A stretch of 33,713 bases of DNA from Caldifarciminota bacterium (lineage in GTDB: Bacteria; Hydrothermota; Tepidihabitantia; SM23-42): contig CP070686.1 in the NCBI GenBank assembly GCA_020353055.1, positions 463,082 through 496,794 on the forward strand. Direction: 5' to 3'. Of the stretch, positions 1,358-31,522 are shown piece by piece; within the stretch, counting starts at the first letter, position 1; each line of letters opens with the position of its first letter. The notes under the pieces are model-generated. The model searched no databases, was not told the origin of the DNA, and worked only from the letters and a program-made list of their open reading frames with translations. The position numbers were made by a program, and so were the translations under genes.

Positions 1358-1384
1358 TCAATGTGCATGAAGGGAGGAAGATTT

Positions 1385-3367
1385 ATGCCGAGATATATAA
1401 GTGTTTGTGCTTTGTCTTTTTGTATTCTTCTTTTTGTCAGTGGAAATGCCGAAGGCTCGCGTATTGATGATAGGTATTATGAGGAAACGCTGAATCCAGC
1501 CCGTAAGGTCAGTTCAATGGGATCAATCGTTGGCCGTGATTCCATGCCATACCAGTCAGGTTGGCCTATTCACTTGCAGGGGTGGATCTGGAGCGCAATT
1601 AGTTTTATCAATGCAGACGCCAGCGGGAATCTTGAAGTATTGTGTTCACGCACAACAGGCGGTATCGTTCACCTCAAGAATTGTGACGGCACCAATTTTA
1701 CCAACTGGCCGGTTACCTTTGGACAATACAATTACGGCGCCCCAGTCGGCGGCGATGTTAATGGTGACGGAATGATGGAGGTGTTCACCGGAGCCAATAC
1801 CAGTGGCGGGTATGCCGTCTTGTACGGTTGGCAGATAACGGGCAGCGCGTTGCCGGGATTTCCTGTTTATTTCGCAACCGGAACACAGGTGAATTCATGT
1901 CCGGTGCTGTCTGATCTTGATTATGATGGTGACCTTGAAATAGTATTCAGTCTTTATGAGGGCGACAGCACCTATGTTCTTCATCATGATGGGACCAGTC
2001 TGGATGGCTGGCCAAAGGCGAGCCCCAGCAACGTTCGGGATGCGCCGGTTATCGGAGATCTTGACGGTGATGGTGACCTTGAGGTGATTGTCGTCACGGC
2101 AAGTGACCTTTATGCGTGGCATGATGATGGCACTGAGTGCAATGGGTTTCCCCGTGACATAGGTCCTTACTATACTGATGGTCTTGCCATGGGTGACCTT
2201 GATGGTGATGGATACGGTGAGATCATCGTCACTACGGTCGGTGCTAACAACAATGTGCGCGCTTATGGCCATAATGGCGGTTCATTGTCAGGATGGCCGC
2301 AGAGCACAGGAGCAAGTTTGTATTCGGAACCGTGTCTTGGCGATCTCGATGGTGATGGTGACCTGGAAGTGGTAGTTGGCGCGACCGGGATCAACACCGA
2401 ATACCACGTCCACGCCTGGCATCACACCGGCGCAGTAGTTAATGGCTGGCCTGCGATAACCGCAATTGGTGAATGGTGTCAGAGTTCATCTGCGATCGGT
2501 GATATTGACGACGATGGCGATATGGAGGTAATCATCGGCTGTGATGACAGCGAGGTTTATGCATTCCATCATGATGCGAGTTTGGTGGCAGATTGGCCAA
2601 TAACCAACCCCAGAGATCAGGTATCAGCACCAATAACGCTTGGTGACATTGATCGCGACGGTGACATCGAAGTGGGTGTTGGCAGTCTGGATAGCCTCGT
2701 GCATATCTGGGATCTGAGCGCGGCCCTTGAGATGGCGAATATTGAATGGCAGACATACCATCACGACCACTGGTTCACTGGCTGGTATCATCCGGTGCCT
2801 CCGGAAAATCTCAGCGGCGGATTGAACGGGAGCGATGTCGAACTCGTTTGGTCTGAGAACTCAGAGCCGGATATTTTAGGCTACAATGTCTATCGTAGTC
2901 TGAACAGTGGTTATCCTTATACTAAACTAACAGATGAAGCAATTGCCGATACAACTTACGTCGATTCAACGGTTGCTGGGGGTAACACTTATTATTACGT
3001 AGTGACTGCTTGCATAAGGGCGGGTTCGGAAAGCCGATACAGTGATGAGATCGCCGTGCCGGTCACTGCAGTGCAGGAACTTGTCGGGAGCGATGTCGAA
3101 AACAACTTCTGGGTCACCAACCCATCGCGAAGTAATGCTTCGCTCCGCTTTAGCATGAAGAACAGGGGTCAGGTTCATATCCGCGTATACAATGTGTTGG
3201 GTGAGGAGATAGCGACTGTAATGAATTCGATCAAGGATGCTGGAACCTACAGCCTTGGTTGGGACTGTACTGATGATGCCGGGAAGAGGTTGCCCGGTGG
3301 AGTTTATTTCCTCAATTTTGCGACCACACAATATTCGGCGACACGGAAATTGCTTCTGCTAAAATAG
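1385..3367 (+). CDS. Secreted FG-GAP/VCBS-repeat protein with FN3 and C-terminal sorting-type domain
   Basis: A signal peptide (MPRYISVCALSFCILLFVSG) is followed by about seven repeats with Ca-binding-like loops such as DLDGDGDLEV, DIDDDGDMEV and DIDRDGDIEV. These are typical of a beta-propeller of the FG-GAP/VCBS type. A fibronectin type III domain follows (about residues 470-565, LVWSENSEPDILGYNVYRS). The C-terminus resembles a FlgD-Ig/T9SS type A sorting domain (IRVYNVLGEEIATV ... LPGGVYFLNF). The protein is probably exported across both membranes and surface-attached or released. I place the start at 1385 because AAGGGAGGAAG ends just before it and the signal peptide then begins correctly; an in-frame ATG at 1361 is upstream of that site. 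The gene ends at a strong terminator and converges on a related gene. Confidence 0.85.
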   Translation: MPRYISVCALSFCILLFVSGNAEGSRIDDRYYEETLNPARKVSSMGSIVGRDSMPYQSGWPIHLQGWIWSAISFINADASGNLEVLCSRTTGGIVHLKNCDGTNFTNWPVTFGQYNYGAPVGGDVNGDGMMEVFTGANTSGGYAVLYGWQITGSALPGFPVYFATGTQVNSCPVLSDLDYDGDLEIVFSLYEGDSTYVLHHDGTSLDGWPKASPSNVRDAPVIGDLDGDGDLEVIVVTASDLYAWHDDGTECNGFPRDIGPYYTDGLAMGDLDGDGYGEIIVTTVGANNNVRAYGHNGGSLSGWPQSTGASLYSEPCLGDLDGDGDLEVVVGATGINTEYHVHAWHHTGAVVNGWPAITAIGEWCQSSSAIGDIDDDGDMEVIIGCDDSEVYAFHHDASLVADWPITNPRDQVSAPITLGDIDRDGDIEVGVGSLDSLVHIWDLSAALEMANIEWQTYHHDHWFTGWYHPVPPENLSGGLNGSDVELVWSENSEPDILGYNVYRSLNSGYPYTKLTDEAIADTTYVDSTVAGGNTYYYVVTACIRAGSESRYSDEIAVPVTAVQELVGSDVENNFWVTNPSRSNASLRFSMKNRGQVHIRVYNVLGEEIATVMNSIKDAGTYSLGWDCTDDAGKRLPGGVYFLNFATTQYSATRKLLLLK

Positions 3368-3382
3368 TGAAACGTCGTCGCA

Positions 3383-3422
3383 AAATAATAAGGGAGGGTC
3401 AGATGACCCTCCCTTATTATTT
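3383..3422. terminator. Bidirectional intrinsic terminator
   Basis: A perfect 18-bp inverted repeat (3383-3400 with 3405-3422) has a 4-nt loop, a GGGAGGGTC core and A/T-rich outer arms. Either strand therefore gives a GC stem followed by a U-rich tract. It lies between two convergent FG-GAP genes and can end both transcripts. Confidence 0.9.
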
Positions 3423-3436
3423 GATCCTTGGATGTC

Positions 3437-4678
3437 TCAGCGCGTAATTACTAAACTCGTTGTTCGTATTTCAGAATCAGTCGTGAGACGGGCAAGATAT
3501 ATCCCCGCTGGTAATTTCCTGCCGCGACTATCCGTTGCGTTCCATGAGAACCTGTGCTCTCCACTCGGCCTGTATCCGTTCGTGGGGGTGGACACCAGAC
3601 GGCCGTCAACAGAATAGACGTCGATTCTTACATTCGCCGGAGTCTCGAGCGAGAATGCAAACTGCGCCGTTCCCGTTATTGGATTGGGTGAGACCACAGG
3701 GCCAGTGATCTTTGTGATTTCCTGCTCACCTTCTTGTATTCCGGTACCCGAGGCGTTTTCGCATAATTGTACATTACCTTCATACCCGCCGATCAGAAGG
3801 TCGAGGTCACCATCACCACCCCAGTCGACAAAATGCAGGCGGGAGCCAGCAACTACATCTATGGGTGTGCCGCTTTCCGTCTTCAATGTATCGAACGTAG
3901 CATTAAAAGAAGGGTTTCCGGCGCTGCCTACATTCTTATAGAAATATACCCGTCCATCATCATTGCCAATCATCAGGTCTTTGAGTCCATCCCCATCGAG
4001 GTCATATACTACTGGGTTCATTCTGTATCTGTAGATTTGAGATGTTCCTGCATACACCATTGAGTAATTGCCAAAGACTGGTGAGGAATTCGTGCCCTGG
4101 TTACCGTATACCCTGATGTTCCCGGTGTTGGGTGAACTGGGTAGTTCTTCTCCAACGATGAGATCTTTTTTGCCGTCATCATTCCAATCAACGACAAACG
4201 GAAAACTATTGGAGCTAACTTTGATATCGAAACCGTTTGCCTTGATATGACCTTCATCTGTAAGACCACTGCCCGACTCGAGGAAAAGCGTTAAGTAGCC
4301 TTCTCGATCGCCGGTTATAAGATCTCTCTGTCCGTCTTCATTCCAGTCGCAGACCGCGACCGTTGAGCCTTGACATCAACCGTAGGGCAGTTGAATCGTT
4401 GCGCCGTTTGCCTGCAGAAAAGTATTACCAAAGAAAACCGGGTCATTGTTTTCACCCACGTTTTCGTAAAAACGGACCATTCCCATGTCAAACTGGCCAA
4501 CGATTAGGTCCTTCTTATTATCTCCGTTCCAGTCGTAAGAAAAGGGCGAACCATATAGACCGACATCGATTGCCGTTGCACCGTCAAAAATGTAGACCGG
4601 TGTCTTGAAACTGGGCGCCTGGCCATGCAATGCGATCACGAGTCCGCTTACAATTAATATCGCAAAAATCCGCTTCAT
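3437..4678 (-). CDS. Secreted FG-GAP-repeat protein with an in-frame UGA at codon 101 (candidate selenoprotein or interrupted gene)
   Basis: From the ATG at 4678 (GGGGAG just upstream) the frame encodes a signal peptide (MKRIFAILIVSGLVIALHG) and one propeller repeat. It meets TGA at 4378-4376 in the context LPYG-UGA-CQGSTVAVCDWNEDG. The same frame then continues without another stop to 3437, so this is a single in-frame codon, not a frameshift. The downstream part has four more repeats (VCDWNEDGQRDLI, VVDWNDDGKKDLI, VYDLDGDGLKDLM, FVDWGGDGDLDLL) and a T9SS type A/FlgD-like C-terminal domain (RIDVYSVDGRLVS ... LPAGIYLARL). Full length would be 413 residues. The repeat spacing runs smoothly across the UGA, and codon 102 is Cys. 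Explanations are selenocysteine insertion (a SECIS-like hairpin follows), a point mutation or an assembly error. UGA as a general sense codon is ruled out because neighbouring genes end in TGA. Confidence 0.75.
4344..4362 (-). promoter_or_regulatory. SECIS-like hairpin just downstream of the in-frame UGA
   Basis: Read on the minus strand, CGGTCGC (4362-4356) pairs with GCGACTG (4350-4344), with one G-U pair, and encloses the loop GGTCT (4355-4351). The stem begins 13 nt after the UGA and the loop begins after 20 nt, within the range known for bacterial SECIS elements. The E. coli fdhF element also displays GGUCU in its apical loop. The bulged U of the E. coli stem is not present here. The element is visible in the sequence; function as a SelB site is inference. 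Confidence 0.45.
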
Positions 4679-4790
4679 TTTTCTCCCCTTTTATTCTTGG
4701 AATCTATTAATGTATTAGGCTCTATGCCTTTATTTAACAGACGTGATTCAGAGGCAAATCGTTACGGCATTACTCAGCCGGGAAGAGGTG

Positions 4791-7700
4791 TTACTGCTTC
4801 TGCTGCTTCAATAGCAGCTCTATTGCGCTGGTAAGCTGACGGTCGCTGCTCGAACCGTCTTCTTCGGGCATGTTTTCGACAAAAATGTCGGGTTCAACCG
4901 GTTTGTTCTCAAGATTTTCGCCGGTGAGCAAGTACCAACCTGTCATGGGCACCCTGAAGTAGGTGCCTTCGTGTAATTGGATATCGACGGTGCCGATGAC
5001 CGCGCCAAAAGTCGGAACGCCGATTATTGTTCCCAGCCCAAGTTCTTTGAAACCGGCCGGGAATATCTCAGCATCGCTGTAGCAGAATTCGTTGATGAGG
5101 AGTGCCGTAGGTTTGTCCCATCTGAAGATTGAGTTATATAACTTCTTACCATCTCTTTCGATCGAATAAGCGTATGAGGTTCGGCGCAGTATGTTCAGGA
5201 GCTCGTCATGAATCGAGCCGCCGCCGTTATATCTTATGTCAATGATCAAGCCTTCTTTTCCCATTTCCTCGTACAGGTCTTTTTCGAATTTTCTAAGATT
5301 CTGTTCGTCCATGGATGCGATGTAGAGGTAGCCGACATGACCCTTGCTTTTTTCGTGCACATAGTCCCTGTTCGCGCGGATCCAGTTATCATTCACTGCA
5401 TTGAGAATCGCGTTGGGATCTTCGGGAGTCAGTTTTGTTTTTCGTGAGTCGCCTCTGTCCGTGATCGACAGCAGTATCTCCTTGTTGTTCATGTTACGCA
5501 GGAGAGAATACATGTTGGAGCCACTTTTTATCGATTCGCCATTGATATGTGTGATTATCTCACCGGGTTTCATATTGGCGTCGGTCTTGCTGGCAGGTGT
5601 ATTCGGTATTACCGTCATCACTTTAATGCCAGCGCCGGTGAAATCGGGATCTGGTATGATCCCGATAGACCCGGATCTTTCTCCGTCCGGGCGGACCTTC
5701 CACACGCCGAGATGGGATGCATTGAGCTCGCCGGTCATCATTCTGATGACGTCGTGGAAATCACGCGTTTCGCGGGTATGTGTTGCCCAATCCGCGTACT
5801 TGTCATACATCATATGCCAGTCGACACCATGAAAATCACTGTCGTAGAAGCCGTCCTGGAGTGACCACCACGCTTCTTTTAGAACCTGCTCGCGTTCGGC
5901 TTGACGGTCGATGCCGATCTGGACTCGAAAGTTCAGCGGCTTCGGTTGTGTTGTCGCGATGTCAACCTTAAAGATCTGTCCTTCTTTTGAAAGATAATAA
6001 ATATCCTTGCCGTCGCGCGATACAAAGAACATCTTCGGGTCGACGTTGGTATGTGTTACCCTCTTTAATTCCTTACCTAACCAGTCCACGGTCCAGATGT
6101 CATCGCTGCCGTGATTGTCCGAATGCATTGCGAATTGCCGTCCATCCGGGGACTGTGCTACTCGATTATATCCACCTCTCACCTCTGTGACGGTGTGAAT
6201 TCTTTCACCGATGTCTTCGAGATCGATGAAGACATTGGCGGCGACTACGATCGTATCCGATTCGCTCTTCTCCCAGTAATCGCGATCTCTGTCTTCATCT
6301 TCCTTTAGCATGAATACATATTTCATCCATAGATTGCCGATAGCGTCGCGTGAGGCAAAAGCGATCCTTCGTCCGTCCTGGCTCCACATTGGCTTGTAGT
6401 CGTCATTAGGATGGTTGGAGATGTTGACCGGTATCATCTTCCCGTCGGCGGCAACCAAATAGACATCCTCGCGCCAACCGAGGGCCGTGCGGCTGAATGC
6501 GATCCAACGGCTGTCCGGAGACCAGTCGATCCACAAAACGTCGTTTTCACGGCACAACTTGATACTGTTTTTCCCTTCTTTGCTCATGACATGGAGCTCA
6601 CCATGGTTCTTTAAATAGGAGATAAGTTGACCGTTGGGCGAGAACGTTGGTTTGTATTCGGTGTTCTCGGTGTCTAATATTTTCTGTGTTCTGAAAACAA
6701 GATCTTCGTGGAATCGCTTTTCACTCTGTGGAACTACGGTGAAGATATCCATATCGCCGTCTTCCATCGCCACGTAAATGAGCATTTCTCTGTCAGGATG
6801 CCATGCTACATCCTTTTCTATGTGTGGGGTGTTGGTGACGCGGACGATCTTATCAGGTGAGCCTTCTTTGATTCCCATTACGAATATATCCCCGCGTACG
6901 ACAAATGCCAGTTCATTTTCGTTTGGTGAAAGTGCGAATTGTGATGCTTCTGCGGCAAAGGTCTCGAATGAGAAAGGCTCGGTTGCGTAATCTTCATTGA
7001 CCGAGATTTGGATTCTTTTGCTCTTGGCGGTTCGGGTATCGTAGATGCAAATTTGATCCAGACATTCGTAGGATATCAGTGAACCATCGTATGATATTCT
7101 CGGGAAATGTATATCTTCGGTTTCAAAAGTCATTTGCTCAGGGTCTATGCCGTCAAAGCTCATGCGCCAAATATTGCTCACCGTGTTCGGACCACGGTCA
7201 CTTATGAAATAGAGTTTGCCATCCAATGCTGAATACATCGGGTATGCGTCACGACCCTCATAGTCAGTAATTTTCTCGGATATACCGTCGGGCAATATTT
7301 TCCTGTAAATATCTTGATTAGCACCGCCCTTGTACCGGCGTCGCCACCAGGCTGCGCCGCCGCGTTCATAATATAGGGTTTTTCCATCCGGCAAGATATT
7401 TGGGTTGTATGCTTCAAACGGAGCGAGAATTTGCGGTGTACCGCCCTCGATCGAGATGCGGTATAGAATCGGTCTGATCGTGTAGCGCTGGGATGAGAAA
7501 AGGACAGATTTGCCGTCTGGGGACCATCCGTATAAGAGATCATAATTAGAATAGAAAGTAAGCCTTTTCGGGGGTTTTTGTCCGTCCGAAGGGATGATGC
7601 ATATGTCATCGTTGCCCCACCGGTCGGTCATGAATGCAATCGATCTCCCATCCGGTGACCAGTAAGGTCTGCTATCGTATGCCGGGTTGACCGTCAGCCT

Positions 7701-7874
7701 TTGAGCAACACCGTCCTCTGTACTCGCGACCCATATGTCTCCGTGGTAGGAAAAGGCAATTCTGCTTGCGTCGGGTGAGGGCGCTGGGTGGCGCCCGCCA
7801 AGAATAACAGCCCCGAAAACGGGGCTGAAAAATGCGATCAGTAACAAATTGATGATATGATTTCTAAGTTTCAT
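4791..7874 (-). CDS. Tricorn-like protease (TolB/WD40 propellers, PDZ, peptidase S41)
   Basis: The protein is about 1027 residues, close to the usual tricorn length. It begins with a signal peptide (MKLRNHIINLLLIAFFSPVFG), so it probably acts in the periplasm. About ten TolB/PD40 blades follow (such as APSPDASRIAFSYHGDIWVAS and WSPDGRSIAF). A core helical domain comes next, then a PDZ domain (GIKVMTVIPNTPASKTDANM), then an S41 fold (LIIDIRYNGGGS). Predicted catalytic residues are the His of GELNASHLGVW (near 721), the Ser of CYSDAE (near 933) and the Glu of ENLENKPVEPD (near 989). Tricorn enzymes cut peptides processively into short fragments. I chose the ATG at 7874 over one at 7889 because the latter overlaps the -10 box, while 7874 coincides with the predicted transcription start. 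Confidence 0.93.
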   Translation of the reverse strand: MKLRNHIINLLLIAFFSPVFGAVILGGRHPAPSPDASRIAFSYHGDIWVASTEDGVAQRLTVNPAYDSRPYWSPDGRSIAFMTDRWGNDDICIIPSDGQKPPKRLTFYSNYDLLYGWSPDGKSVLFSSQRYTIRPILYRISIEGGTPQILAPFEAYNPNILPDGKTLYYERGGAAWWRRRYKGGANQDIYRKILPDGISEKITDYEGRDAYPMYSALDGKLYFISDRGPNTVSNIWRMSFDGIDPEQMTFETEDIHFPRISYDGSLISYECLDQICIYDTRTAKSKRIQISVNEDYATEPFSFETFAAEASQFALSPNENELAFVVRGDIFVMGIKEGSPDKIVRVTNTPHIEKDVAWHPDREMLIYVAMEDGDMDIFTVVPQSEKRFHEDLVFRTQKILDTENTEYKPTFSPNGQLISYLKNHGELHVMSKEGKNSIKLCRENDVLWIDWSPDSRWIAFSRTALGWREDVYLVAADGKMIPVNISNHPNDDYKPMWSQDGRRIAFASRDAIGNLWMKYVFMLKEDEDRDRDYWEKSESDTIVVAANVFIDLEDIGERIHTVTEVRGGYNRVAQSPDGRQFAMHSDNHGSDDIWTVDWLGKELKRVTHTNVDPKMFFVSRDGKDIYYLSKEGQIFKVDIATTQPKPLNFRVQIGIDRQAEREQVLKEAWWSLQDGFYDSDFHGVDWHMMYDKYADWATHTRETRDFHDVIRMMTGELNASHLGVWKVRPDGERSGSIGIIPDPDFTGAGIKVMTVIPNTPASKTDANMKPGEIITHINGESIKSGSNMYSLLRNMNNKEILLSITDRGDSRKTKLTPEDPNAILNAVNDNWIRANRDYVHEKSKGHVGYLYIASMDEQNLRKFEKDLYEEMGKEGLIIDIRYNGGGSIHDELLNILRRTSYAYSIERDGKKLYNSIFRWDKPTALLINEFCYSDAEIFPAGFKELGLGTIIGVPTFGAVIGTVDIQLHEGTYFRVPMTGWYLLTGENLENKPVEPDIFVENMPEEDGSSSDRQLTSAIELLLKQQKQ

Positions 7875-7880
7875 GCCATC

Positions 7881-7909
7881 AATATACAATAGTTTAGGGA
7901 TAGTGTCAA
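7881..7909 (-). promoter_or_regulatory. Sigma-70-type promoter giving a leaderless tricorn transcript
   Basis: On the minus strand, TTGACA (7909-7904) and TATATT (7886-7881) are 17 bp apart. The expected start, about 7 nt past the -10 box, falls on the A of the ATG at 7874. Confidence 0.7.
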
Positions 7910-12290: not shown

Positions 12291-12968
12291 TTACAGTAGT
12301 TTCGCGAAAATCAAGATGTCGAGTAGAATGAGAAATAAGAACTGAATGACGAAATAGTGTATTATTACTGTGCCCTTAGTCCGTAATCCTGATTTACAGT
12401 AACTCAGGGTAACAAGAAACGCAACAATAAACCACGCGATGTAATTTTGCAGTGGCGCAACAGGCAGCGTCCACTGCCAGTAGTCGAGATTCACGGCCAC
12501 AATCTCAAGTGGTATGTCAAACACGGCCGTGAGTGATCCCGCCAGCAGTGCGCAGCACCAACAGTTGCCAGCAAGTATCCGGTTGCACAGTCGGCTGGCT
12601 ATCGTAATGGCCCCCAGAACGACGATCACCCAGTATAAGCCGATAACCAGGGGGACCTCAAGGAATTTAATGCCGAGAGTGCCACCGTAATGGTATTCAC
12701 CAAAAATGATGCCGCTGTGTACACCGAGCACTTCCACCGCGAAAGTGAAGATGAAGGTGCCGAGACACCACAACATGAATTTGATATCGATGCCCGTCGT
12801 CCTGAGCAGAGCTGCCGCACCTGAGATGAGAAGTACATAAGGTGTCAAAGCGAGCATATAAGGGAAGGTGATATCGACGGCGTGTCCGACAATGCCGGCA
12901 GCATAGACAGCGTACAATACGAAGAGTAAAACTTTGTCATTAAAAAAACGACGGATCCCTGGATTCAT
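12291..12968 (-). CDS. cruF: CruF-type carotenoid 1,2-hydratase (DUF422)
   Basis: This 225-residue polytopic membrane protein carries the CruF signature VEVLGVHSGIIFGEYHYGGT followed by KFLEVPLVIGLYWVIVV, and the later AVFDIPLEIVAVNLDYWQW. CruF adds water to the psi end of an open carotenoid end group, giving a tertiary 1'-hydroxyl. It is known from gamma-carotene-derived pathways and, in haloarchaea, from bacterioruberin synthesis. The start at 12968 overlaps the crtD stop by 4 nt (ATGA) with GGAG upstream, so the two are probably translationally coupled. It is the last gene of the operon and converges on the TPR gene with a 17-nt gap. The LAGNCWCCALL segment is unusually Cys-rich. Confidence 0.85.
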   Translation of the reverse strand: MNPGIRRFFNDKVLLFVLYAVYAAGIVGHAVDITFPYMLALTPYVLLISGAAALLRTTGIDIKFMLWCLGTFIFTFAVEVLGVHSGIIFGEYHYGGTLGIKFLEVPLVIGLYWVIVVLGAITIASRLCNRILAGNCWCCALLAGSLTAVFDIPLEIVAVNLDYWQWTLPVAPLQNYIAWFIVAFLVTLSYCKSGLRTKGTVIIHYFVIQFLFLILLDILIFAKLL

Positions 12969-14449
12969 TTTTCTCCTTTCATAACCAGATCTGCCGCAAT
13001 TCGACCCGAAAGCAGAGCGAGGGGCATGCCGCCGCCTGGATGGCACGTGCCACCACAAAAATACAGCCCGCGGTAGATCATGGACTTATTTTGCTGCCTC
13101 ATGAATGCGCCCGTGATACTGTTCGATGCCATGCCGTAGAGGCTGCCCTTGCTGCTACTGGTCTCCCTTTCAATGTCACGCGGTGTCATTACAGATTCAT
13201 ATACGATGAGTTTCTCGATATCGATACCCAGTGTCCTTTTGAGTTTCTCGGTGACGGTTTTTCTTACTCTTTGGGTTTCTGCTGACCAGTTCTGTCCGGC
13301 CATATACGGGGCATTTATCATGACAAACCAGTTCTCGTACCCGTTGGGCGCATCTGTTTGGACATACTTCGATGTTATATTTATATAGATTGTGGGGTCT
13401 TCAGGGCATTTTTTGTTTCTGAATATATCTCTGAATTCTTTTTGATAGTCGTTCGAGAAAAATACGTTGTGTACCTGCAGATCACCGGGATTGCCCTTTA
13501 TCCCCCAATAAAAAACAAGTGCTGAAGATGATGGCTCTTTATGCCTGTACATTCTGGCCATTGGCGAGTTGCGGTCCTCGAGTAGCACACCGTAGACATT
13601 CCTGACATCCGAATTTGCCACAACGACCTCATGGTCTACGATAGTATTGTCCATCTGGATCGCCTTTATCCGGTGTTTTTCGTGGATTATTCTGGTGACT
13701 TCTTGACCGAAGTGAAACCGTACGCCTTTTTTCTTGGCGATGTCGTACAGGGCCCGCGGGATTGAGTTAATGCCCTCATCAACATTGTATGCGCCGAAGT
13801 AAAACTCGACATAGGGTATGATCAAAAACGTTGCCGGCGCACGGTAGGGCGATGAACCATTATAGGTCGCATAGCGGTTGAATAATTGCACAACCCGGTG
13901 GTCGCTGAAATACATGCTGTTCATTTTATTGAGCGTTCTGGATACTCCAAGTTCGCCGAGATGTGTGAGGGCGGAAAGACTATTACTGCTCGGAGTACGG
14001 AAAGTGATGAGCGGACTGTTAAACAAGAAAATATCAGCTGCAAGTTCATATATTTCTTTGCAGCGTTCGAAGTAACTGTTTATACTTGATCGTTTATCTT
14101 TGGTCTTTGCCGCGAATTCTTCTGCGAGACGTTTCATGTCAGCGTAGGCATTGATAATCGTTCGGTCCGGGTATAAATACCGGCAATTTGTGTGAAGTCT
14201 TTCAAAATGGAGAAACCTGTCAGGGTGCGCGTCCAGTTCCTCAAAATGTTTCTTGAAGACGAACGGCATGGTTAACAGGGATGGTCCTTTGTCGAACCTG
14301 AATCCTGATGCGCGTAGGACGCTGGCTTTGCCGCCTGGTTCGGCATTCTTCTCATATACGTCGACCCGGTATCCCGCGTGCGCGAGATGTGCAGCCGCTG
14401 ACAGTCCGCCGATGCCAGCGCCGATTACGGCGACGCTCTTCTGCCCCAT
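12965..14449 (-). CDS. crtD: CrtD-like carotenoid 3,4-desaturase (CrtI superfamily)
   Basis: The 494-residue flavoprotein has an N-terminal FAD-binding motif (VAVIGAGIGGLSAAAHLAHA, then VYEKNAEPGGKAS). It also has the superfamily substrate region (FDKGPSLLTMPFVF) and the C-terminal FAD motif GLYFCGGTCHPGGGMPLALL. I call it CrtD rather than phytoene desaturase for two reasons: a second protein in the operon fits CrtI better, and CrtD plus CruF plus a lycopene cyclase is the known set for myxol/saproxanthin-type carotenoids. It would introduce the 3',4' double bond after CruF hydration. It overlaps the lycopene cyclase gene by 25 nt and cruF by 4 nt. The split between CrtI and CrtD among the two paralogues is inference. 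Confidence 0.78.
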   Translation of the reverse strand: MGQKSVAVIGAGIGGLSAAAHLAHAGYRVDVYEKNAEPGGKASVLRASGFRFDKGPSLLTMPFVFKKHFEELDAHPDRFLHFERLHTNCRYLYPDRTIINAYADMKRLAEEFAAKTKDKRSSINSYFERCKEIYELAADIFLFNSPLITFRTPSSNSLSALTHLGELGVSRTLNKMNSMYFSDHRVVQLFNRYATYNGSSPYRAPATFLIIPYVEFYFGAYNVDEGINSIPRALYDIAKKKGVRFHFGQEVTRIIHEKHRIKAIQMDNTIVDHEVVVANSDVRNVYGVLLEDRNSPMARMYRHKEPSSSALVFYWGIKGNPGDLQVHNVFFSNDYQKEFRDIFRNKKCPEDPTIYINITSKYVQTDAPNGYENWFVMINAPYMAGQNWSAETQRVRKTVTEKLKRTLGIDIEKLIVYESVMTPRDIERETSSSKGSLYGMASNSITGAFMRQQNKSMIYRGLYFCGGTCHPGGGMPLALLSGRIAADLVMKGEK

Positions 14450-15111
14450 TTATCCTCAGCAAAACGATAGAATATCAGGTAAAGTGAAAGTAGCGAAAAG
14501 TTGTAGAAAAAGTCTTCGACCGGAATGGAGGTTATTCTTAGTCCGATGATAGCACCTTCGGCGTACGTGACTACCGGAAGGGAGGTGAGAAAGTAATTGA
14601 AAACTGCAAAGAGTGCGGTACAGATTAGAATATATAGCCAGTAAAGATTTGATACAAATATCGTCTTGAAGCAGAACCGTGCGCTTACGAAGATGATTGC
14701 GGAAATTAATAGAACCGTAGCCGTATAGCTCCTGTTGATGAAAATAATAGCGCCCGTAAAAAATAGCAGTGCTAAAATTCCATAGATATGCTTATTGATG
14801 GAAAAAGCCGTTTCTTTTATGTAAGTGCGAAACGTCTCGTAAAGAAAAAGACAGCTGTAGGGTACGGTGATGAAAAAGAGTATTTCCTCAAACGGGAGTC
14901 CGAATATGTTGAAACCGTGCACGTATTCATTATTGAATGACCAGTCGCCGCGACCGCTGGCCACTGCATCCCATATCACGAACATACTGCCGACGATGAG
15001 GATGGAAAAGGCCAACGGCTTCAATTTCCGGTAGTAGTAAACCCTCGGTGCAAAGGTCAATGCTAGGGGTATTGCGATGATGACGACGTTAAGAATTAAA
15101 TACAATCTCAC
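14425..15111 (-). CDS. Lycopene cyclase, CrtYcd type (two fused cyclase domains)
   Basis: The 228-residue membrane protein contains two lycopene cyclase domains in tandem. The first has WDAVASGRGDWSFNNEYVHG and the PxEE motif LPFEEILFF; the second has the matching IPVEDFFYNFSLLSLYLIFY. About six to seven hydrophobic helices are visible. This fused form is known from archaea and Bacteroidetes and turns psi ends into beta rings, giving gamma- or beta-carotene. The GTG start at 15111 overlaps the upstream gene's TGA by 4 nt (GTGA). With CruF present, cyclisation of one end only is expected. Confidence 0.9.
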   Translation of the reverse strand: MRLYLILNVVIIAIPLALTFAPRVYYYRKLKPLAFSILIVGSMFVIWDAVASGRGDWSFNNEYVHGFNIFGLPFEEILFFITVPYSCLFLYETFRTYIKETAFSINKHIYGILALLFFTGAIIFINRSYTATVLLISAIIFVSARFCFKTIFVSNLYWLYILICTALFAVFNYFLTSLPVVTYAEGAIIGLRITSIPVEDFFYNFSLLSLYLIFYRFAEDKWGRRASP

Positions 15112-15674
15112 GGCTCATCTTTCAATTCTGTGTTGAGTTGTTCGAGCCGAGTCCGTTGTGCCGCATCCAATTGATCTGTCCCCAGTATATACTCGACCAT
15201 GTCTTTCTGTATATTTTCGTTGACGAAACTGTAATCGCGCTTTTCGAGCATTGTTATTACTTTCTGCAAATCCTCTGGCACCTTGCCGGCCATTCCGAAG
15301 ATACCCGGAATCTGGTGGAAAAAGGAAAACCGCAGGAAACGGCCTTCGAGCAGTTCGGGATCATTGTCTACGGCATGATTCATTTTGTCAACTGCTCGAG
15401 ACACGTAAACGAATTTACTGATTGGGTTTGAGGCATGACGCCCCTTGAGTCCTTCGAGGGCGGCGTAGTAGGCGAGGACCACCGGTGAATACTTATTGTA
15501 GTCACTCGAGAAATTGTCTTTGATAAACTTCATGTAATAAGCCGTAGTATCTTCGTCTTCAACTGCAACGTAGAAACCGATTCGGATCTTGTTCAGTATC
15601 TCGTCATTTACTATGGAGGAGTCTTTTTCGGCAAAAATTAAGGTGAGGATAGCAGGAAAAAGACAAAGGTACAT
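15108..15674 (-). CDS. Conserved-looking exported helical protein inside the carotenoid operon
   Basis: The 188-residue protein starts with a short signal peptide (MYLCLFPAILTLIFAEKD). The start at 15674 is set by GAGGGGGG 9 nt upstream; a longer reading from 15812 overlaps crtB and is rejected. The mature part is predicted helical and TPR-like, with PVVLAYYAALEGLKGRHASN, YVSRAVDKMNHAVDNDPELL and EGRFLRFSFFHQIPG. From memory, similar small proteins with a 'PLxxAYxAA...NPxxK...AVxxDPxNxEIRFLR' pattern occur in Bacteroidetes near carotenoid genes, but I cannot confirm this here. Its position between crtB and the cyclase, and its overlap with the cyclase start, suggest a periplasmic role in carotenoid production or handling. 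No enzyme motif is seen. Confidence 0.75.
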   Translation of the reverse strand: MYLCLFPAILTLIFAEKDSSIVNDEILNKIRIGFYVAVEDEDTTAYYMKFIKDNFSSDYNKYSPVVLAYYAALEGLKGRHASNPISKFVYVSRAVDKMNHAVDNDPELLEGRFLRFSFFHQIPGIFGMAGKVPEDLQKVITMLEKRDYSFVNENIQKDMVEYILGTDQLDAAQRTRLEQLNTELKDEP

Positions 15675-15697
15675 TTTTATGGTCCCCCCCTCTGTGG

Positions 15698-16525
15698 TCA
15701 ATGGTAGCGAAAGGTGCTGTACGCATAGCGTGACACAATGTATGATATTGATGGCTTGACTTTTTTCTCGTAGACGACCATGGGTTCCTTCCTGATCTTT
15801 TGGGCGGTCCATTTATACATATCAGAGGCAGTCTTTATGGGTATGAAGTATCGTTTTGGTATGTAAGGGAACCCCTGTTCAGCAATCCGCTGCCATGATT
15901 CGTAACGATCGATTTGCCCACGTATCCATGCAGCAAATTGTGTCTCGCGCTTGCTGATATGCTCATGTTCCAGGGATTCCAGTCCGTGTTTCGTCAGATC
16001 GCTCTGAGGCAGATACTGGCGTCCGAGGTCGAGGTCCTCGCGGATATCACGTATAAAATTAATGTATTGCATTGCCCTGCCGAGATACCGTGCGTACTCG
16101 TAAGACTCCTTCGGTAATTCCATGATGCGTGCCATCATCATTCCGATGACTTCAGCCGAGCCGTGCATGTAATTAATTGTTTCCTCGATCGTCTCATACC
16201 TATTCTCTTTCAGGTCCATCTCCATCGATTTCAAGAAGGCGTGTACCCATTCTTCATTGAATCTTCTTTTATTGAGTAATTGGACGAAGGAATCGATCAC
16301 TACGTCACCGCTAGTATTGCCCTTAAGCGCGGTCCGATAATCATCCCAGAACCTGTAGAAATCTTCTTTCTGCTGCGGCATGATGTCGACAAAATTATCT
16401 GCTTTGCGTACGAATGCGTACAGTACAAAAACGTCACCGCGTACATCCATGGGAAAGAAGAGAGAGCTGTAAAAATATGTCTTGCTGCCTTCTTTAAAAA
16501 TCGAGTAGAGTGTTCTGTTAACCAT
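15698..16525 (-). CDS. crtB: Phytoene synthase (squalene/phytoene synthase family)
   Basis: The 275-residue protein has the expected family features. These are the N-terminal SKTYFYSSLFFP, the first Asp-rich motif in YAFVRKADNFVD, and the second in QYINFIRDIREDLDLGRQYL. Between them lies the segment MHGSAEVIGMMMARI, typical of phytoene rather than squalene synthases. It condenses two geranylgeranyl-PP into phytoene at the membrane surface, the first committed step. No geranylgeranyl-PP synthase gene is in the window. The start overlaps the crtI stop by 8 nt. Confidence 0.93.
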   Translation of the reverse strand: MVNRTLYSIFKEGSKTYFYSSLFFPMDVRGDVFVLYAFVRKADNFVDIMPQQKEDFYRFWDDYRTALKGNTSGDVVIDSFVQLLNKRRFNEEWVHAFLKSMEMDLKENRYETIEETINYMHGSAEVIGMMMARIMELPKESYEYARYLGRAMQYINFIRDIREDLDLGRQYLPQSDLTKHGLESLEHEHISKRETQFAAWIRGQIDRYESWQRIAEQGFPYIPKRYFIPIKTASDMYKWTAQKIRKEPMVVYEKKVKPSISYIVSRYAYSTFRYH

Positions 16526-17993
16526 ATTGTTTCCTGATCTGCTCGTTCACTATTTGTGAAGATATGACGACCATTGGTACACCAATACCCGGGTGGTTGT
16601 AGCTCCCTGTGTAGAATAGATTCTTCACCTTTTTGCTCTGATGCGCCGGTCGAAAGACAGCAGTCTGTAGTAGCGTATGTGACATACCAAGTGCTGTGCC
16701 TTTGTATGCATTATACGCTTGAATAAAGTCATTGTGGGCAAAGGTTCTTTTCACTGTAATGTGCTCCCTGAGTTTGACGTCTATTAGTTCTTCGAGGTGT
16801 TTGATGGTCTTGTCGAAGTATTTCTTTCGGATCGATTCATTGTCCTCAAGACCGGGCGCGACCGGTACCAGAATAAAAATGTTCTCCGAGCCGTCCGGCG
16901 CTACCGTACTATCCGTCTTGGATGGGCAGCATACGTAATAACTCGGGCTCTCAGGCCACGCGGGTTCGTCAAAGATGGAATGGAAATGTTCATCCCACGA
17001 ATTATCGAGGTAAAGATTGTGGTGCAGAATATTTGGTATCTTCTTCTTCAGTCCTAAATAGATCAGAAAAGCCGAAGGCCCCATTTTCTTTCTCTTCCAG
17101 TAGCCTTCAGGGTATGTCGTGAATTCCGAACTGAGCAATTTGGTTTCTGCAAAATGATAATCAGCATTTACCACAACCAAGTCGGCATTAAACTCCCCCT
17201 TGTCAGTAGCAACGCTTACGGCACGGCCGTTCACAACATTGATTTTCCGTACGTCTTGCTTGAGCATTATTCTGGCGCCCTGTTCCTCGGCCAATTTAAG
17301 GAAACCACTAACGAGTTTGCCAAGTCCGCCGCAGGGATACCAAACTCCGAGGTCAAAATCAACGTGAGACATTATCGAATAAAGAGCAGGTGTGTTATCT
17401 GGCGAACCGCCAAGAAAAACAACCGTGTACTCTAATATCTTTCTGACTTCGGGACTGTCAAAGTATCGGCGCGTGAATTTGTCGAAACTCTCAAAGATTC
17501 TGAGCCGGGTGCCCTTCGTTAATATTTGCCAGTTAAAAAAATCGAAAACCGTTTTGTATTCACGATACATGAGTTCACTCATCGCAATTTCGTATTGGTA
17601 GCGAGAGACATCGAGGTAATTCTTGAGCTTAGTGCTTCCGTCCTTTTCAAGTGTATTGAATAGTCCATCGATACCAGTGCGGTTAGCAGGTACGTCCACC
17701 GTCTTCTTACCACCGAAGAAAACTCGGTAGTTGGGGTTCAGCCTCGTGAGTTTGTAGTAATCAGTGGTCTTTTTGTTGAAAGTCTCGAAAAAATTCTCGA
17801 ATACGTCTGGCATCAGATACCAGGACGGCCCCATGTCGAAGACAAATCCGTCTTTGCGCCAGACTCGAGCCCTGCCTCCTGGCTGTTCATTCTTCTCGAG
17901 TATCGTTACATCGAAACCATCTTGTGCCAGAAGGGCGGCAGCAGATAATCCCCCGAATCCTGCCCCGATGATGATCGCCTTCTTTCGTCTCAA
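16518..17993 (-). CDS. crtI: Phytoene desaturase
   Basis: The 491-residue flavoprotein has the CrtI signature set: AIIIGAGFGGLSAAALLAQD with ILEKNEQPGGRARVW, the substrate-side FVFDMGPSWYLMPDVFENFF, the central GGLGKLVSGFLKLAEEQGA, and the C-terminal YTGSYNHPGIGVPMVVISSQ. It should desaturate phytoene to lycopene. It is the promoter-proximal gene of a six-gene minus-strand operon. The start is TTG at 17993, with AAGGAG 7 nt upstream; no better ATG lies near. The promoter is at 18027-18054. Confidence 0.92.
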   Translation of the reverse strand: MRRKKAIIIGAGFGGLSAAALLAQDGFDVTILEKNEQPGGRARVWRKDGFVFDMGPSWYLMPDVFENFFETFNKKTTDYYKLTRLNPNYRVFFGGKKTVDVPANRTGIDGLFNTLEKDGSTKLKNYLDVSRYQYEIAMSELMYREYKTVFDFFNWQILTKGTRLRIFESFDKFTRRYFDSPEVRKILEYTVVFLGGSPDNTPALYSIMSHVDFDLGVWYPCGGLGKLVSGFLKLAEEQGARIMLKQDVRKINVVNGRAVSVATDKGEFNADLVVVNADYHFAETKLLSSEFTTYPEGYWKRKKMGPSAFLIYLGLKKKIPNILHHNLYLDNSWDEHFHSIFDEPAWPESPSYYVCCPSKTDSTVAPDGSENIFILVPVAPGLEDNESIRKKYFDKTIKHLEELIDVKLREHITVKRTFAHNDFIQAYNAYKGTALGMSHTLLQTAVFRPAHQSKKVKNLFYTGSYNHPGIGVPMVVISSQIVNEQIRKQYG

Positions 17994-22658: not shown

Positions 22659-22697
22659 ATGAAGCATCTCTGTAACCATGCTGGGAGGCAGCAATGA
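22659..22697 (+). CDS. 12-codon leader ORF overlapping the next gene's start
   Basis: AAGAAAGGA is followed 5-6 nt later by ATG (22659). The ORF encodes MKHLCNHAGRQQ and ends in a TGA that overlaps the ATG of the oxidoreductase by 3 nt. The GGGAGG site of the oxidoreductase lies inside it. This arrangement fits translational coupling, but an ORF this short may be chance. Confidence 0.35.
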   Translation: MKHLCNHAGRQQ

Positions 22698-24172
22698 GTT
22701 CCGTCGTGATAGTTGGTGCTGGTATGGGTGGCCTCATGGCCGGAAATCTTCTGGCAAAGAAGGGCCACAAAGTTGCCATATTCGAATCTCATACAATGCC
22801 TGGCGGGTATACCGCGGGTTTCTGGCGCAAGGGTTATTATTTTGAGAGCGGGACGCTGTCTTTTGAAATGGCAAGTTTGATATTCCCGGCCATGCGTGAT
22901 ATCGGCGTTTATGATAAACTGCAGTTTGTTCGTCAAATAGCGCGTTGGGTCACACCGGACTATGATTTTGTGATGCATTCCCTCGATGATATGAAAAAAT
23001 CAATACTCGAAGCTTTCCCTTCGGAAAGAGAAAGGCTCTTGAAATATTTTGCCGAGATCGATCGCATGTGTGGTATATACAAGGGGCTTGAAAAACCAAA
23101 TACCTTCTTGAATAAACTAACATTCCCGTTACGTATGTCCAGGTTCGTTAACATGGTCCGGAAGTATGGAAGGATGACCAGTTCCGAATTTGCCGAGATG
23201 TATTTTGAAAAAAAGTCCAAGGTATATTTTACGTTCAAGGATGTCGGATATCCTGATATGCCCGCGATGGTAGTGCCGGCAGCATTCATGTCATTTCTCG
23301 ATGACTACTGGACCGTTAAGACGGGCATGCAGTCGTGGGCTGATGTCCTTGCGGAGAATTTCCGCAAACTCGGTGGTGAGTTGAAACTGAAATCAAGGGT
23401 CGAAAGGATACTCACAAAAAATGGAACCGCAACAGGCGTGACCTGCGGCGGAAAAGACTACATGGCGGATTATGTTTTATCTGCCTGTGACTACAAGAAA
23501 ACCTTCTTGAATCTCCTCGATGACCGGTCGTTGCTTAGTGATGATTTCGTTGAGAAGATCCAAAATGCAGCCGTTTCTGAAGGCTTTTTTGTGGTATATC
23601 TGGGACTTGATATTCCCCGGGAGAAGATGGTGGAGTATCTGAAGGTTCCTCATATTCTGTACGGAGACTGCAATCCGCCAGGCCCTGACATGGGTGATGC
23701 AACAGACGAGAAGTTTTTTGAGAAGGTATGGCTCAGTGTATATTCACCGTCACTCATGAACGAAGACCTCGCACCCAGGGGTAAGTCCTCGCTGATGATC
23801 AGCTGTATGGTTCCGTTAAGGTGGATGAACAACTGGGGTGGCGGCGACCGGAAGATCTATAAAGAACTGAAGGAAAAAGCAAAGAAAGCTCTGATCAAAC
23901 GATTCTCATCGATAATTCCTGATCTTGAGAAGCATATTGAATTCGAGGATGCGGCGACGCCTCTGACCTATGAACGGTATACCGGCAACAGTGACGGTGC
24001 TTCGTCGGCGTGGTCGTGGAATCCTAATAAGTGGTTTTACAATAATCCGAACAGCACGACGATCGACACGCCGGTCAAGAACCTGTACATAAGTTCATGC
24101 TGGGCTTACGAGTTTGGCGGCATCCCGACCACGGTAAAAGCCGCGTACATGTGCGCGAAACGGATAGCGTAA
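22694..24172 (+). CDS. CrtI-superfamily FAD-dependent oxidoreductase (CrtISO/RetSat-like)
   Basis: The 492-residue flavoprotein has the N-terminal motif VVIVGAGMGGLMAGNLLAKK and MPGGYTAGF, and a C-terminal FAD-side region ending YISSCWAYEFGGIPTTVKAA. In place of the CrtI MGPS block it reads FESGTLSFEMASLIFPAMRD, which differs from the two desaturases in the operon. Relatives include carotene isomerase-like and retinol saturase-like enzymes and many uncharacterised oxidoreductases. It may act on carotenoids because the crt operon is near, but it is on the other strand and in another unit. GGGAGG lies 5 nt before the ATG. Confidence 0.8.
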   Translation: MSSVVIVGAGMGGLMAGNLLAKKGHKVAIFESHTMPGGYTAGFWRKGYYFESGTLSFEMASLIFPAMRDIGVYDKLQFVRQIARWVTPDYDFVMHSLDDMKKSILEAFPSERERLLKYFAEIDRMCGIYKGLEKPNTFLNKLTFPLRMSRFVNMVRKYGRMTSSEFAEMYFEKKSKVYFTFKDVGYPDMPAMVVPAAFMSFLDDYWTVKTGMQSWADVLAENFRKLGGELKLKSRVERILTKNGTATGVTCGGKDYMADYVLSACDYKKTFLNLLDDRSLLSDDFVEKIQNAAVSEGFFVVYLGLDIPREKMVEYLKVPHILYGDCNPPGPDMGDATDEKFFEKVWLSVYSPSLMNEDLAPRGKSSLMISCMVPLRWMNNWGGGDRKIYKELKEKAKKALIKRFSSIIPDLEKHIEFEDAATPLTYERYTGNSDGASSAWSWNPNKWFYNNPNSTTIDTPVKNLYISSCWAYEFGGIPTTVKAAYMCAKRIA

Positions 24173-30223: not shown

Positions 30224-31522
30224 ATGAGAAGTGTTGTTGTATTTTTCGTGTTGTTGACCATAATGCCCGTATTTTTATCCGCTCAGATAGGTTGGACCGA
30301 GCATATTGTTGATACAAACTTCGGGTTTGCATCCTGGGTCTTTGCGATTGACCTGGATGGCGATGATGATACGGATATTCTTGGTACGGCGTATGATGAT
30401 GATGATGTCGCATGGTGGGAGAATGATGGTAGCCAGAACTTCACGAAGCACACGATCGCAGGAAATTTCGACGGTGCCTATTGTGTGCACGCGGTCGATA
30501 TCGATGACGACGATGACATCGATGTGATAGGGGCGTCGACTGTGGATAGTCTCGTTGCTTGGTGGGAGAATGACGGTAATGAGAACTTTACGTACCACGC
30601 GTTGGCACCCATCCTTCCTTCCGCAATTTCTTGCTATGGAATAGACATTGAGCCGGATGGGGATGTTGATATTGTCGGTTCAGGGTACTGGTCCGGCGAT
30701 ATCTTCTGGTGGGAGAATGACGGTAACGAGAACTTCACATACGATACTGTGGGATTTGGTTTGATCGGAGCTTGGGCCGTTAGTCCCTGTGATCTCGACG
30801 GCGATACAGATGTCGATGTGGTAGGCGTTGGGGTTTATGTGAACAGCATACGATGGTGGGAGAACGATGGTAACGAGAATTTCACTGAGCGGTCGATAAT
30901 AAATGGATTCAACGGTGCGCGTGCAGTCTATGCGGTCGATGTGGATGGAGATACAGATGTTGATGTTCTTGGCGCGGCACAGACCATGAATCGTCTTAGT
31001 TGGTTCAGAAATGATGGCAACGAGAATTTCAATGAACTCATTATCGACAATAACCTAATCAGCGCAAGCGCGGTCTATGCCGCTGACCTGGACAACGATA
31101 CGGATATCGATGTAATTGGCGCGGCTTTGCAAGGAAATGAATTCGTCTGGTATGAAAATGATGGTGTTGAGAATTTCACCAAGCATGTTATTGCCTCAAA
31201 TGACACGGGTGCGACTGCTGTTTATGCGGCTGATGTTGATACGGATGGCGATGTGGATGTTCTGGGTGCCGCGGCAGGTATCGATGAAATCATTTGGTGG
31301 GAGAGTAATGTTGTAGGTGTTACCGAGGGCGATAACAAGATTATTGCTTCTGAGTCATTTTTCCCGACGTTAATCGTTGGCCAAATCTACCTTCCCGATG
31401 ACAAAACCTGCAAGATCTTCGACATCACCGGCCGCGAAGTAGCGAATGTAAATCTGAAACCGGGTGTATACTTTATCAAACGTGAAGGCGTGATAATACA
31501 AAAGATCGTTAAGGTTTACTAA
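30224..31522 (+). CDS. Secreted VCBS/FG-GAP-repeat protein with short C-terminal sorting-type domain
   Basis: The 432-residue protein has a signal peptide (VVVFFVLLTIMPVFLSAQ). About seven near-identical repeats of roughly 50 residues follow, each built as 'A-x-DlDgDtDvDVlGAa ... WWENDGNENFT'. The repeated WWENDGNENF strand and the DxDxD loops suggest a Ca-binding seven-bladed propeller. The last 70 residues end in CKIFDITGREVANVNLKPG and a short VYFIKREG strand, a reduced T9SS type A-like domain. GGGAGG precedes the ATG. High identity between the repeats at the DNA level suggests recent internal duplication or conversion. No enzymatic part is seen; surface adhesion or binding is the likeliest role. 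Confidence 0.85.
   Translation: MRSVVVFFVLLTIMPVFLSAQIGWTEHIVDTNFGFASWVFAIDLDGDDDTDILGTAYDDDDVAWWENDGSQNFTKHTIAGNFDGAYCVHAVDIDDDDDIDVIGASTVDSLVAWWENDGNENFTYHALAPILPSAISCYGIDIEPDGDVDIVGSGYWSGDIFWWENDGNENFTYDTVGFGLIGAWAVSPCDLDGDTDVDVVGVGVYVNSIRWWENDGNENFTERSIINGFNGARAVYAVDVDGDTDVDVLGAAQTMNRLSWFRNDGNENFNELIIDNNLISASAVYAADLDNDTDIDVIGAALQGNEFVWYENDGVENFTKHVIASNDTGATAVYAADVDTDGDVDVLGAAAGIDEIIWWESNVVGVTEGDNKIIASESFFPTLIVGQIYLPDDKTCKIFDITGREVANVNLKPGVYFIKREGVIIQKIVKVY

Follow-up and report, generated by a model that had tools for sequence, protein, structure and literature searches.

The gene on the minus strand at 3437-4678 of the window (the whole stretch of DNA that was analysed, 33,713 nucleotides) very probably encodes a selenoprotein. 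This is a prediction, as there is no experiment, mass spectrum or selenium measurement behind it. The gene consists of 413 codons and a terminal TGA, and its single internal TGA, codon 101, is directly followed by a Cys codon, Table 1. An earlier note on this DNA had pointed out a lone TGA in an otherwise continuous 413-codon frame, had suggested that a selenocysteine (Sec) there would adjoin a Cys, and had proposed the gene as a selenoprotein candidate. The read-through translation bears out the frame, and Cys102 follows the UGA in the gene as well as in 41 of 41 aligned homologues. The candidate status is supported by the conserved UGA-Cys, by a hairpin downstream of it and by the Sec machinery of the genome. 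Insertion of Sec at the UGA, which is inferred and not experimentally shown, is in our judgement close to certain.

Table 1. Features of the predicted selenoprotein gene and its immediate surroundings, in window coordinates.
Feature	Position	Strand	Details	Basis
Predicted selenoprotein CDS	3437..4678	-	413 aa, Sec101, terminal stop TGA	read-through translation and full-length homologues in the same frame
In-frame UGA, inferred Sec101	4376..4378	-		UGA at that column in 41/41 aligned homologues
Cys102, invariant partner of Sec (Sec-Cys)	4373..4375	-		41/41 homologues; also retained in Gly-Cys relatives
SECIS-like hairpin	4344..4362	-	7-bp stem, loop GGUCU	folds, family-wide stem conservation, synonymous-shuffle tests
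Signal peptide (inferred)	4619..4678	-	residues 1-20, MKRIFAILIVSGLVIALHGQ	model helix 2-17; hydrophobic N-terminus in complete homologues
FG-GAP beta-propeller core	3761..4549	-	residues 44-306, five DxDxDG-type repeats	Pfam FG-GAP_3, AlphaFold2, Foldseek
C-terminal FlgD-Ig / T9SS type A sorting-like domain	3446..3694	-	residues 329-411	PF13860, TIGR04183
Arg219	4022..4024	-	blade loop equivalent to Sec loop	column counts: 39/41 Arg, 2 His
Arg280	3839..3841	-	blade loop equivalent to Sec loop	column counts: 36 Arg, 4 Lys, 1 His
Asn157	4208..4210	-	blade loop equivalent to Sec loop	column counts: 38/41
Ribosome-binding-like GGGGAG before ATG	4683..4688	-		sequence
Palindrome, probable terminator	3384..3420	.	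AATAATAAGGGAGGGTC-ATCT-GACCCTCCCTTATTATT then T-run, between two convergent genes	sequence
Tricorn-like PD40/PDZ/S41 protease	4791..7889	-	directly upstream, same strand	Pfam; same order in G001, G003, G007

Homologues were sought with the read-through protein in 60 relatives and, in a second round, with a profile in 147 genomes of the phylum. At E <= 1e-60 the profile identifies 46 members in 28 genomes, and all of them have an in-frame TGA; no member without it was found among these 46 homologues. One member has two TGAs, the extra one lying upstream of the likely start codon. In 41 of 41 distinct aligned copies the UGA and the next Cys fall in one column, as does Gly104, and the identity to the window protein drops to about 36%. 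Whether homologues would have Cys, UGA or an unrelated residue at this position was named as a check in the earlier note; the UGA-Cys is invariant, it recurs in other phyla and no unrelated residue was seen. We found no Cys-Cys version at the UGA column, nor any homologue with Cys at the Sec position. The nearest non-Sec relatives have Gly at the Sec column and retain the Cys. The same genome contains a second Sec-Cys FG-GAP gene (C1:780711-781949), about 40% identical to the first. Another member, on a contig labelled Desulfuromonas sp. SDB, clusters with the WOR-3 copies L048 and L049, either by mis-binning or by transfer.

A hairpin, CGGUCGC-GGUCU-GCGACUG, starts 13 nt past the UGA. The fold reproduces the 7-bp stem and GGUCU loop of the earlier note, with the pairs C17-G35, G18-U34, G19-C33, U20-A32, C21-G31, G22-C30 and C23-G29, and the stem is continuous, without the bulged U of its E. 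coli counterpart, as had been noted. A bulged U is not universal among bacterial SECIS elements. The loop pentamer and the distance had been described as those of E. coli fdhF. The pentamer GGUCU is indeed present here, but the distance agrees only approximately, the loop GU of fdhF lying about 2 nt nearer the UGA. The pentamer is not conserved across the family, where AGUUU, AGGUU, CGUGU and AGAUA are also seen. Loop positions G25 and U26, numbered from the UGA, do not vary among the 38 aligned sequences that lack an insertion, and E. coli SelB contacts such a loop G-U.

Taken by itself, the hairpin of the window gene does not stand out (synonymous shuffle P = 0.155 over 14 codons, z = -1.8 in a narrower test). 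It lies within the range of what synonymous codons give, and the comparison across the family is decisive. Of 68 distinct Sec-Cys sites, 66 (97%) pair over 5 bp or more to enclose a 5-nt loop, compared with 31% after shuffling with synonymous codons drawn from the family. In the narrow folding test a z below -2 is reached at 73% of the 41 phylum sites and at 4% of 1369 control positions within these genes; since the sequences are related, the nominal P of 2e-23 cannot be taken as a real probability. The stems are varied (GUCGC/GCGAC, AUCGC/GCGAU, UCCAC/GUGGA, UCCGC/GCGGA, UCCAU/AUGGA), and unrelated stem sequences encode differing peptides (STVAVCDW, SSPQVVDW, ATNPQVVDW). Where L048 and L049 have a one-codon insertion, the hairpin shifts along with the inserted codon. 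Pair counts on the plain alignment underrate the hairpin, as the stem of one group is offset by 1 nt with G25-U26 fixed. In the seven Gly-Cys relatives that were examined no comparable hairpin was seen.

The earlier note asked for selA, selB, selD and tRNA-Sec in the same genome, and all four were found. The host is a 2.69 Mb genome of candidate division WOR-3 that encodes tRNA-Sec, SelA (551 bits), SelB (346 bits) and SelD (318 bits) within about 20 kb, at C1:448-463 kb; the propeller gene lies at C1:466.5 kb. The tRNA-Sec gene (C1:448326-448415, anticodon TCA) scores 75 bits with a cut-off of 47. The Rfam search for tRNA-Sec is noisy, and since other tRNAs also score at E <= 0.001 only this 75-bit match was used. 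The selD gene (C1:461771-462676; L139:15176-16132, minus strand), about 4 kb from the propeller gene, has an in-frame TGA of its own, and SelD is probably itself a selenoprotein here. Between selA and selD (L139:7276-12924, minus strand) there are same-strand genes that, from a look at their sequences only, resemble corrinoid-binding, UroD-like, BadF/BcrA-like activase and HgdB-like genes, and the block may represent a selenium or methyl-transfer pathway.

Among the 24 family-bearing relatives, the host genome included, 19 have SelB above the cut-off, three more have SelA and one has part of a SelB gene at the edge of a contig. The incomplete draft G020 has the family with neither SelB nor SelA. 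However, SelB is present as well in 25 of the 37 genomes that lack the family, and the other 12 have no SelB match. Given how common SelB is in the class, its co-occurrence with the family is merely supportive and does not discriminate. For the distant Sec forms, SelB is found in 23 of 26 genomes and SelA in two more. Among the 13 genomes with a Gly-Cys form nine have SelB, and the remaining four lack both SelB and SelA. In three genomes with a Sec form SelA/SelB was not matched (G020, G172 and G187, the last with a SelA search only).

The internal TGA could be explained without Sec in three ways. A nonsense mutation or a sequencing error in an ordinary FG-GAP gene, which the earlier note had kept as a possibility, would look alike in one assembly, and the hairpin of the window is not significant by itself. 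But the same UGA is shared by 46 of 46 phylum homologues and by other phyla, both flanks are conserved and the RNA hairpin is constrained, which refutes this explanation and leaves it next to no credence; with dozens of independent assemblies carrying it, a sequencing error is excluded. The UGA could instead be a true stop, with the invariant TGATG as a stop-start overlap, a common motif of translational coupling, and two polypeptides assembling into a split propeller. The overlapping ATG is, however, out of frame and in the window gives MSRLNGRGLRLE before it meets a stop, and the conserved hairpin would be left without a role. The TG after the TGA is invariant because the Cys codon TGY is invariant. 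We consider a split propeller very improbable. Any tRNA that reads UGA would also fit a frame with an internal UGA, so that a reassigned code or a suppressor tRNA could insert another amino acid. Against this, each gene has one internal UGA, always at the same place, a tRNA-Sec gene is present, and TGA terminates the gene itself and many others in the same loci, i.e. the codon is not reassigned; another amino acid is hardly conceivable. Nonsense mutation, stop-start reinitiation and code reassignment were thus rejected, on the UGAs of the homologues, the wrong-frame ATG and the TGA terminators.

The protein is probably an exported five-bladed FG-GAP propeller, where export is inferred from the signal peptide. 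Pfam assigns FG-GAP_3 (PF13517) with 69.8 bits, above the curated cut-off, in five stretches, and the C-terminal part matches FlgD-Ig (PF13860, 40.5 bits) and TIGR04183 (35 bits, cut-off 23), while PF18962 at 22.9 is under its Pfam cut-off of 27. A T9SS-type tail is frequent in the family and absent in some members, such as L089. The AlphaFold2 model is confident, with a mean pLDDT of 89 and a pTM of 0.71. Foldseek returns BBSome and integrin-alpha propellers; the PDB search gives general propeller matches only, with low TM-scores, as expected if the number of blades differs. The register of the repeats, together with the secondary structure of the model, leads us to infer that the Sec-Cys pair lies in the loop that joins strand D of blade 1 to strand A of blade 2. 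Conserved residues in the four loops equivalent to it are Pro45, Asn157-Pro160, Arg219-Pro222 and Arg/Lys280. A repeat loop had been regarded in the earlier note as an unusual site for Sec. The location inferred here agrees with this, but we count it in favour and not as a worry, because the active site of propeller enzymes usually lies on the face of the inter-blade loops.

Other phyla were studied by a scan of named genomes followed by read-through alignment. Sec-Cys is also present in Fermentibacterota, Fibrobacterota, Planctomycetota (including a bin labelled Kuenenia), Lentisphaerota and unnamed lineages. A Gly-Cys form is found in Planctomycetota and Verrucomicrobiota, in Planctomycetota often as GCMGC or GCLGC. 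The position of Sec is not fixed. In two Nitrospirota and in L079 Sec is in the Cys column (Gly-Sec or Tyr-Sec), in L081 and L105 Sec is followed by Gly, and L097, from a genome with SelA, has the motif GCUG. In the tree the Nitrospirota pair is placed beside the Gly-Cys forms of Planctomycetota (97/82 support) and Sec-Cys is spread over the rest; the root is arbitrary, and the ancestral state of Sec-Cys is therefore undecided. An 11-kb stretch of an unclassified bacterium contains a cluster of four Sec-Cys propeller gene copies (L067).

In the mechanism that we propose, SelB-bound Sec-tRNA would read the UGA of codon 101, aided by the hairpin, and the product would be an exported five-bladed FG-GAP propeller with a vicinal Sec-Cys pair. 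This pair, on the loop that leads from the outer strand of blade 1 into the inner strand of blade 2, would face Arg219, Arg/Lys280 and Asn157. Most likely it would cycle between selenol/thiol and selenenylsulfide, as a redox catalyst or switch outside the cytoplasm, with a substrate that is perhaps anionic. The redox reading follows from the position of Sec-Cys on the usual active-site face of a propeller. With no gene partner conserved outside the genus and a tail that some members lack, it rests on chemistry and position only, and we favour redox use of the pair just slightly.

A serious rival is that Sec is inserted but the pair is not catalytic and serves either to bind a soft metal or metalloid or, as a structural vicinal selenenylsulfide, to give a ligand pocket its shape. 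FG-GAP propellers, integrin alpha for instance, are for the most part binding modules, and the neighbouring genes offer no redox partner. Several known CU or UC selenoproteins are also tied to metal or mercury chemistry (PMC13188914). On the other hand, the GCMGC and GCLGC of the Gly-Cys relatives in Planctomycetota place a CxxC-like pair in the corresponding loop, and in Nitrospirota it is the Cys column that holds Sec; both are easier to reconcile with a reactive chalcogen than with a structural one. The conserved Arg, Arg/Lys and Asn of the equivalent loops resemble a substrate site. A non-catalytic pair is, in our view, the less probable of the two and still a real possibility. The broadest form of the redox reading, which we hold with no more than even confidence, is that of a widespread family of exported beta-propeller selenoenzymes with a vicinal Sec-Cys at the top of the propeller as a new extracytoplasmic redox centre. 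Sec would have shifted among UC, GU, CU and U-G, and the family would have been missed because its non-Sec relatives have Gly, not Cys, at the Sec column.

The neighbourhood analysis found no conserved gene partner beyond the genus and no redox partner among the neighbours. The Tricorn-like protease is a genus-level neighbour, in the same order in three other genomes of the genus and unrelated to the Sec mechanism, and a SAM methyltransferase gene also recurs near the propeller gene. The window contains two further exported FG-GAP-like repeat proteins without an in-frame UGA (1361-3367 and 30224-31522, both on the plus strand), one of them converging on the selenoprotein gene. Phytoene desaturase/isomerase-like, phytoene synthase-like and cyclase-like genes, recognised by inspection of the sequence alone, are located at 12291-17993 and 22694-24172 and form an apparent carotenoid cluster.

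Neither the window protein nor any of the relatives tested is matched by a selenoprotein model of NCBIfam (June 2026), and Pfam has no such selenoprotein family. A 2026 inventory lists 119 prokaryotic selenoprotein families (PMC13188914), and neither this inventory nor deep-Sep (PMC12013277) names an FG-GAP or propeller selenoprotein. Full-text literature searches combining selenoprotein or selenocysteine with FG-GAP, VCBS, beta-propeller or WOR-3 gave nothing relevant; an unlisted report is possible. The propeller selenoproteins are thus a family that we found in no list of known ones, and what sets them apart as a variant among selenoproteins is the fold, the export, the Sec-Cys order and the shifting position of Sec. 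Prokaryotic selenoproteins are mostly thioredoxin-like or metal-centre enzymes and are commonly discovered through UGA/Cys pairing among homologues. An entire exported family with an unrelated fold, present in at least five phyla, seems to have gone unnoticed here; no Cys-for-Sec relatives were found and standard gene calling cuts every member at the UGA. It would widen the use of Sec outside the cytoplasm, suggests that more hidden families of this kind exist, and is a concrete candidate for biochemistry.

With E. coli FdhF the gene shares the in-frame UGA, a hairpin right after it with G-U in the apical loop, and SelA/B/C/D in the genome. It differs in the absence of the bulged stem U, in the 13-nt spacing and in a protein unrelated to formate dehydrogenase. 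Thioredoxin reductase ends in GCUG, a vicinal Cys-Sec able to form a selenenylsulfide, and L097 has the same letters as this mammalian C-terminal motif; here, however, the order is mostly U-C, in an internal loop of an exported propeller without a flavin domain. PQQ methanol dehydrogenase, an eight-bladed beta-propeller enzyme with a vicinal disulfide, likewise has a vicinal chalcogen pair in a propeller, but as Cys-Cys and without FG-GAP repeats, and we found no sequence relation to it. SaoC, SaoL, MbdU and the CopZ-like CU/UC selenoproteins (PMC13188914) also have Sec adjoining Cys, in other protein families. The signal peptide, the DxDxDG repeats and a FlgD-Ig or Por_Secre_tail domain are shared with FG-GAP_3/VCBS-type propellers that have a T9SS type A tail. 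Ordinary propellers of this type have no UGA, whereas here a Sec-Cys pair is predicted to be built into the loop before blade 2.
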